From: Actinidia chinensis
Taxonomy: Eukaryota > Streptophyta > Magnoliopsida > Ericales > Actinidiaceae
Assembly: GCA_009663005.1 (NCBI GenBank)
Contig: CM018904.1
Coordinates: 405,621-418,120, forward strand
Length of the DNA: 12,500 bases
Direction of reading: 5' to 3'
The position numbers and the translations under genes are program-made. The notes beneath the pieces were generated by a model. That model searched no databases and was not told the DNA's origin. It saw only the letters and a program-made list of their open reading frames with translations. Positions 10,721 through 11,737 of this stretch are shown one piece after another (positions within the stretch are counted from its first letter, which is position 1; the number at the start of each line of letters is the position of its first letter).

Positions 10721-11301
10721 ACTGGTGACCCGTTCTATCCGGTCCTTACAAATAGGAGGGATAGGAGCAGCTCATACTTCGCCACAACAATGGCCCAGAT
10801 ACCCAAGTCTGATTGAAATATCTCTGTAACACTTCGGCTATTTGCACTCAAAGGATTCACTATAAGGGAAACAGTTGCTATTCTTGTTATTGACTGATAG
10901 GGCACATTACCTTTTTCAAAACACGTTAACTTCAGTAAATGACTTCCCACTCATAGCTTAGCATCGATTTTTTTTTTCTTTCCAAATTCTTCTGCTGGGC
11001 ATAACATTGGGAATATAGGCTGTGAGTTTATTTCACCGAGACTTCACAATTTCCAAGGGACAAGATAACTGGAACCACAATATCTCCTGATTTTCTTGAT
11101 GAGATAAGCCTTATTTGCTCAGATAATGAGTGTGTTTTGCTCAGAGGAACTCCTCCCATGGGATCAAGGATTTGGGTGGAGTCCGCGGTCGGAATTGAAT
11201 ATTACCGAAGGACTGTCCGCTTCTGTATGGGTTAGTGTTGGGCACTCGATACTATTGAGAGTTTGGTGAGAGGGAGAGAGCTTTTAATTGCTGACCAACA
11301 A
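10721..11301 (+). pseudogene. Peroxidase fragment, exons 3 and 4, plus strand (copy 2)
   Basis: Exon 3 remnant is 10721-10886 (166 nt, the same length as copy 1). It follows TTTTTAG, reads TGDPFYPVLTNRRD, and has a TGA at 10814-10816 where copy 1 has GGA. Its donor is G|TT instead of G|GT (10887-10888). Intron 3 is 10887-10994. At the exon-4 junction the expected AG reads TG (10993-10994). Exon 4 keeps the proximal histidine (GHNIG, cat at 11000-11002), has a stop at 11066-11068, then shifts frame. It ends at about 11301, short of the C-terminus, at the centre of the palindrome. No exon 1 or 2 was found upstream: 10560-10720 is T-rich intron-like DNA. Confidence 0.85.
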
Positions 11302-11737
11302 TTGATGGTGGTTGTTGATTAGCAAATAAATGCTCTCTCTCTCCCCTAAAACTATCATAGTATCCAGGGCCCAACATGTATACAGAAGCGGACAGTCCCC
11401 TAGTAATATTCAATTCCGAATGCAGATTCTACCAAAATCCTTGATCCCATGGGAGAAGGAGCTCTTCTAAGCAAATCACTCTCATTGTCTGAGGAAACGA
11501 GGCTTATCTCACCAATAAAATCAGGAGGTATTGCCGGGTCCAGCTGTCTTGTCCGTTGGAAGTTGTGCAGTCTCGATCGAACAAACGCACAACCTATCTT
11601 TCTTATGTTAAGCCCACCAGCAGAATATTGAAAAGAAAAAAAAGAAATTGATACTAAGCAATGAGTGTGAGTTCATTATACTGGAGTTAACATCTTCTGG
11701 AGAAGGAAAAATGCAAAACAATGAATACCAAGAAGAG
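10878..11737. repeat. Near-palindromic inverted repeat of peroxidase sequence
   Basis: Left arm 10878-11301 and right arm 11312-11737 are reverse complements with substitutions and a few small indels, roughly 80-85% identical by eye. The centre is about 11306/11307. CAACAA (11296-11301) pairs with TTGTTG (11312-11317), and the 10-nt centre could form only G-U type pairs. The arms cover the last bases of exon 3, intron 3 and most of exon 4. Long exact stretches include GACTGTCCGCTTCTGTAT (11211 onward, mirrored near 11380-11398) and CATGGGATCAAGGATTT. Confidence 0.9.
11312..11737 (-). pseudogene. Peroxidase fragment, end of exon 3 to exon 4, minus strand (copy 3)
   Basis: On the minus strand, 11737-11729 is the last few bases of exon 3. 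A normal GT donor (11728-11727) opens a 111-nt intron 3, and exon 4 begins at 11617. Seventy-one codons then stay open before TAG at 11402-11400, so this copy is less damaged than copy 2. It has lost catalytic residues: the proximal haem-ligand histidine is Leu (GLNI, codon 11612-11610), and the cysteine of the ICSDN block is Ser. The exon-4 acceptor reads TG (11619-11618), as in copy 2. The fragment ends at the palindrome centre. The open frame 11449-11631 on the + strand is an antisense shadow of it. Confidence 0.85.

Follow-up and report, generated by a model that had tools for sequence, protein, structure and literature searches.

Four broken copies of Peroxidase 48 and a palindrome

The window, meaning the whole 12,500-nucleotide stretch of Actinidia chinensis contig CM018904.1 that was analyzed, contains four copies related to Peroxidase 48 (PRX48), all truncated or broken. 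Using the A. chinensis peroxidase P0001 as the query, tblastn located copy U on the plus strand, copy L on the plus strand (10724–11307), copy R on the minus strand (11618–11312) and copy M on the minus strand (10482–10393). L and R face each other as a palindrome, whose arms were set by local alignment at 10878–11301 (+) and 11312–11737 (−) across a 10-nt centre; this bears out the position given in a preliminary description of the DNA. The features are as follows.

5350–5538, plus strand: exon 2 of copy U, 88.9% identical to P0001 (tblastn).
6193–6936, plus strand: exons 3 and 4 of copy U, also a pseudogene by its in-frame stops in exon 4 (DNA comparison, tblastn, reading frame).
9705–9805, minus strand: continuation of copy M, the end of exon 4 and its flank, 72% identical to U as DNA (E = 1e-8).
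10354–10483, minus strand: exon 4 fragment of copy M, 75% identical to U as DNA; 30 amino acids match P0001 at E = 4e-5.
10718–10886, plus strand: exon 3 of the left copy, for the most part beyond the palindrome; it contains an in-frame stop and has TT rather than GT at the 5′ splice site (sequence, tblastn).
10878–11301, plus strand: left arm, holding the end of exon 3, intron 3 and the 5′ part of exon 4 of a PRX48 pseudogene (local alignment, DNA comparison, tblastn).
10993–10994, plus strand: 3′ splice dinucleotide of the left arm, TG instead of AG.
11206–11211, plus strand: 1-nt frameshift in the left arm ahead of the GLSASV-coding stretch, common to the right arm (tblastn, by eye).
11302–11311, no strand: centre, of which 7 nt prolong the left copy (to 11308), plus 3 unassigned nt (read from sequence, alignment).
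11312–11737, minus strand: right arm, holding the end of exon 3, intron 3 and 5′ exon 4 of PRX48 as in the left arm (local alignment, DNA comparison, tblastn).
11397–11402, minus strand: matching 1-nt frameshift in the right arm, beside a stop specific to this arm at 11400–11402 (tblastn, by eye).
11618–11619, minus strand: 3′ splice dinucleotide of the right arm, TG instead of AG, common to the left arm.

The two arms share 341 identical positions in an alignment of 435 columns, 20 of which contain gaps, giving 82.2% identity over the 415 gap-free columns. The alignment score of 396 compares with a maximum of 40 among 500 pairs of Markov-randomised arms, and a looser four-copy MAFFT alignment, flanking bases included, yielded 78.5% identity between L and R (336/428). 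Upstream, the left copy extends into exon 3 as far as 10718, a part over which the right copy shows no match. Where the right arm ends outward (11736–11791), the 16-nt sequence AGATATCAAAGGCTTT was seen by eye as a direct repeat of two copies 40 nt apart.

To the parent family the copies can be assigned through U, the longest of them (5350–6936 overall, and likewise broken). Its read-through is a class III peroxidase (Pfam PF00141, E = 9.2e-48), and among the best 120 of 491 protein matches the nearest was P0001, an intact A. chinensis peroxidase with 84% identity, followed by a Sarracenia protein (71%) and then by many putative Peroxidase 48 proteins. The scored part of L was 65% identical to P0001, itself a putative Peroxidase 48 of class III (PF00141). 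DNA comparison and tblastn agreed with the earlier assignment of the arms to the end of exon 3, intron 3 and exon 4 of a peroxidase. With PRX48 proteins as their closest matches, the palindrome arms are, on sequence similarity, pseudogene fragments of PRX48. Scanned alone, two short open stretches, 89 aa of R and 96 aa of M, remained without a Pfam match at 1e-3. In the protein searches no live paralogue from kiwifruit came closer to the arms than P0001, the best of 5 matches among 112 candidates, and no second protein named Actinidia appeared in either search (the 5 matches; the best 120 of 491, 4 of them bearing no name); the protein search compares only sequences with exact words in common, so that a paralogue could be missed.

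Disabled frames or splice sites and missing exons mark L, R and U as pseudogenes, and M is a fragment only. L carries the stop in exon 3 as well as frameshifts, and its 5′ splice site is lost (TT); R carries the stop at 11400–11402 and a frameshift. Exons 1 and 2 of PRX48 were not found beside L and R within the window by tblastn. Copy M (9705–10483) is divided by about 550 nt, and its tail was matched at the protein level (9781–9719) only by the Sarracenia query, at E = 0.13. Within the dividing stretch lies a 24-nt direct repeat, 96% identical, at 10016–10130. Upstream of U, positions 1–4200 hold a badly broken retrotransposon-like coding region, Ty1/copia-like by eye; four reading-frame fragments taken from it were scanned against Pfam and gave no match. 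This region includes a tandem repeat of about 60 nt in 2.1 copies (2073–2194). A run of about 118 A (1167–1284, 94% matches) was also observed, which may be natural or a weakness of the assembly.

Kinship of the copies and origin of the inversion

Site patterns across L, R and U in the MAFFT alignment grouped the two arms together, with 76 sites at which L equals R, compared with 37 at which U equals L and 31 at which U equals R; 12 sites differed in all three and 238 were the same in all. In a protein tree with 21 rows (U, L and R added to 18 of the 120 proteins listed; L filling 36% and R 26% of the columns), L and R were united at a support of 99/96, and the fork that placed them beside Actinidia PRX48 and U received 89/83, below the tool's star level. 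Judged by these comparisons, each arm has its closest relative in the other. Copy M was 73% identical to U and 64% and 57% identical to the arms, in an alignment in which a few bases at the ends of M are misplaced.

Both arms have lost the same 3′ splice site and carry the same 1-nt frameshift, which argues that the PRX48 copy was probably already dead when it was inverted. The frameshift was aligned by eye, the splice change is a single site, and gene conversion between the arms could also have led to their sharing both. The preliminary description had proposed an inverted duplication of a target gene; peroxidase sequence has indeed been inverted, but the shared disabling changes argue against a live gene as its source.

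The two arm copies end within 7 nt of one gene position (U 6772 and 6765). Two breakpoints would fall at most 7 nt apart in 2% of draws over the 742-nt span, on the assumption that they are uniformly distributed. This agreement favours a fold-back or template-switch event, or a longer palindrome that lost its centre, as the probable origin. We weighed this against two separately formed pseudogene paralogues having been joined tail to tail by an inversion. In favour of such a joining, at least four copies make up the cluster, with both orientations present, and the inverted copy M is nearer to U than to the arms; conversely, L and R are mutually closest, have disabling changes in common and break within 7 nt of each other. 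We regard the joining of separate paralogues as unlikely, though by no means far-fetched; it bears on the origin only and is compatible with a silent locus, so that its likelihood overlaps with that of the explanation we prefer.

An artefact of assembly or library preparation is hardly credible. A read chimera would be expected to produce near-identical arms, whereas those observed here differ by 18% with 20 gap columns.

The distance between L and R was K2P 0.205 (95% interval 0.16–0.26). Substitution rates of 7e-9 and 2.5e-9 per site per year were used for dating, and would place the inversion, as an order of magnitude, at about 15 or about 41 million years ago, respectively.

Apparent neutral decay of the arms

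Differences between L and R were spread over the three codon positions as 24/14/22 (p = 0.25 against an even distribution). Between U and L they numbered 27/22/40 (p = 0.054), which only hints at older constraint; codon position is thus a weak yardstick here. Intron 3 (22/105) and exon 4 (50/300) differed between the arms at similar rates (p = 0.37), and arm-specific changes numbered 37 and 31 (p = 0.54), indicating similar rates in both arms. Transitions that would yield G:U pairs were equally frequent on the plus-strand and the minus-strand transcript, at 20 each, alongside 34 transversions; no strand-biased wobble between the arms was therefore detected, and neither strand appears to be favoured. 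The longest identical run between the arms was 21 nt (p = 0.42). No conserved 21-nt island stood out, the best 21-column block shared with U reaching p = 0.20 over the whole alignment and p = 0.30 in exon 4. CpG observed/expected ratios were 0.51 and 0.46 in the arms, intron 3 included, whereas exon 4 of U (6452–6936) gave 0.22. Collectively, the arms look to have decayed neutrally since the inversion, as judged from tests on 415 columns that would hardly detect selection acting on one 21-nt duplex.

Predicted folding and the microRNA reading

The segment 10870–11740 was folded in silico on both strands, giving −475.7 kcal/mol for the plus and −476.6 kcal/mol for the minus strand, and the long imperfect hairpin predicted beforehand from either strand was recovered. 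These energies correspond to z scores of about −36 (+) and −37 (−), and none of the 20 shuffles per strand folded equally well. In the predicted structures, 716 of 871 nt (+) and 710 of 871 nt (−) are paired, with a longest unbroken helix of 20 bp (+) and 21 bp (−). The palindrome thus has the long self-complementary foldback of an hpRNA or inverted-repeat siRNA locus, a kind of locus that would also be expected to be transcribed and to yield 20–24-nt RNAs chiefly from one strand. An RNA crossing the centre would form an imperfect hairpin of about 425 bp.

The preliminary description had also suggested a proto-MIRNA, in which the hairpin would be narrowing to one discrete DCL1-type duplex directed against PRX48. 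The plant MIRNA criteria of Axtell and Meyers (2018) reportedly call for a foldback of at most about 300 nt, a miRNA/miRNA* duplex with at most 5 mismatches and precise processing in small-RNA reads. Here the complete foldback is about 860 nt and exceeds that limit of about 300 nt; a shorter inner foldback of the stem is possible. A loose mismatch rule, used as a stand-in for the duplex criterion, was satisfied by 338 of 404 (+) and 359 of 404 (−) 19-nt windows of the 5′ arm, a result nominally favourable to the reading but non-discriminating, since with so many passing windows no single duplex is picked out by the fold. No block of miRNA size stood out as better conserved than the remainder of its arm (best 21-column block, p = 0.20 to 0.37), and an Rfam scan of the window at the gathering threshold returned 0 matches. 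The tests of selection on pairing, strand and 21-nt block, which are weak ones, gave no signal. Inverted duplication of gene sequence does agree with the route of MIRNA birth described in PMC1790633; the same paper reports a conserved miRNA-sized block in several, though not all, inverted-duplication loci, assumes that such loci need a nearby functional promoter and regards drift and death as perhaps their commonest fate. The proto-MIRNA reading of the palindrome is unsupported and, in our estimation, very improbable.

Potential for siRNA production

We further considered whether the palindrome might be a working hairpin-siRNA locus, in which read-through double-stranded RNA would be processed by DCL2/3/4 into mixed 21–24-nt siRNAs acting on PRX48 mRNA or directing local DNA methylation. 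The near-complete predicted pairing favours such a locus, and precedent exists in rice, where an inverted pseudogene pair with a 185-nt duplex and 83% identity is associated with many small RNAs (PMC2708354). Uniform silencing persisted when hairpin transgenes carried one mismatch in 4 or G:U pairs, and disruption of the perfect repeat prevented their self-methylation (PMC9263138); the same paper, on the other hand, associates weaker dsRNA with lower silencing efficiency, and the antisense arms of those transgenes matched their target perfectly. Neither exon 1 nor exon 2 of PRX48 was found beside the arms, so that the parental promoter would not be expected there. Promoter-like sites numbered 11 against 8.6 expected, with a bacterial consensus that is uninformative for a plant. 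The G:U pattern is without strand bias, and the arms lack any special CpG depletion of the kind that long methylation might leave.

Some 21-mers of the arms could match PRX48. Against the exons of U, the one paralogue compared as DNA, no more than 41 of the 404 from L and 13 of the 406 from R stayed within 3 mismatches. As an optimistic bound, in which the best synonymous codon was taken at every position of kiwifruit PRX48, 97 of the same 404 and 69 of the same 406 could match the coding sequence at up to 2 mismatches, with 13 (L) and 4 (R) possibly perfect. At the same threshold, shuffled arms gave 0/101 and 0/102, and the exons of U, the positive control, 236/273. Targeting of PRX48 could therefore occur in principle, as judged from these matches, but more weakly than from U; any transcripts so targeted would most likely be those of PRX48 and not of the class III peroxidases in general. 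On balance, a working siRNA locus is doubtful. By analogy with the transgenes, an old pseudogene palindrome whose protein role was lost before the inversion might now feed siRNAs onto live PRX48, while mismatches between its arms prevent self-methylation; we consider this combination improbable.

Discussion

Taken as a whole, the evidence makes it likely that the palindrome is an inverted fragment of a dead PRX48 copy that has decayed neutrally, with a mode of origin, an age and a silence that we infer. Part of a PRX48 paralogue that had been inactivated beforehand would have undergone local inverted duplication within a small PRX48 pseudogene cluster, and the arms would then have decayed neutrally to 18% divergence. 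It appears to be an ordinary inverted PRX48 pseudogene pair, and the chance that it acts as an hpRNA locus is modest.

The arrangement resembles that of rice inverted pseudogene pairs, in which pseudogene paralogues lie adjacent on opposite strands and of which one of two was 83% identical (PMC2708354). The rice stems are 154–185 nt with one loop of 1,283 nt, whereas the arms here are about 425 bp around a 10-nt centre; the rice pairs, moreover, were found through mapped small RNAs, whereas this hairpin is known from sequence alone. Resemblance of both arms to a gene family far beyond any 21-nt site is likewise a property of Arabidopsis MIR161, MIR163 and others (PMC1790633). Those loci yield sequenced miRNAs, and for MIR163 computational evidence of promoter duplication is also cited there; the arms described here, by contrast, stem from a dead copy and the 5′ exon is absent.

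Among the matches listed from open-licence PMC texts, at the level of titles and the beginnings of abstracts, no paper on this locus or on any PRX48 hairpin was found, nor, among the matches listed from those texts, one combining peroxidase 48, small RNA and hairpin. The rice Lgc1 and soybean chalcone synthase inverted-repeat loci have a promoter, near-identical arms and a phenotype, and the kiwifruit palindrome is like them in consisting of inverted gene copies with dsRNA potential.

Should small RNAs be found to arise from it, the palindrome would represent a half-decayed intermediate between a gene duplicate and an hpRNA or MIRNA locus, built from a gene that was already dead. If it yields none, it would provide a clear case in which a large and stable predicted hairpin is plain gene debris.
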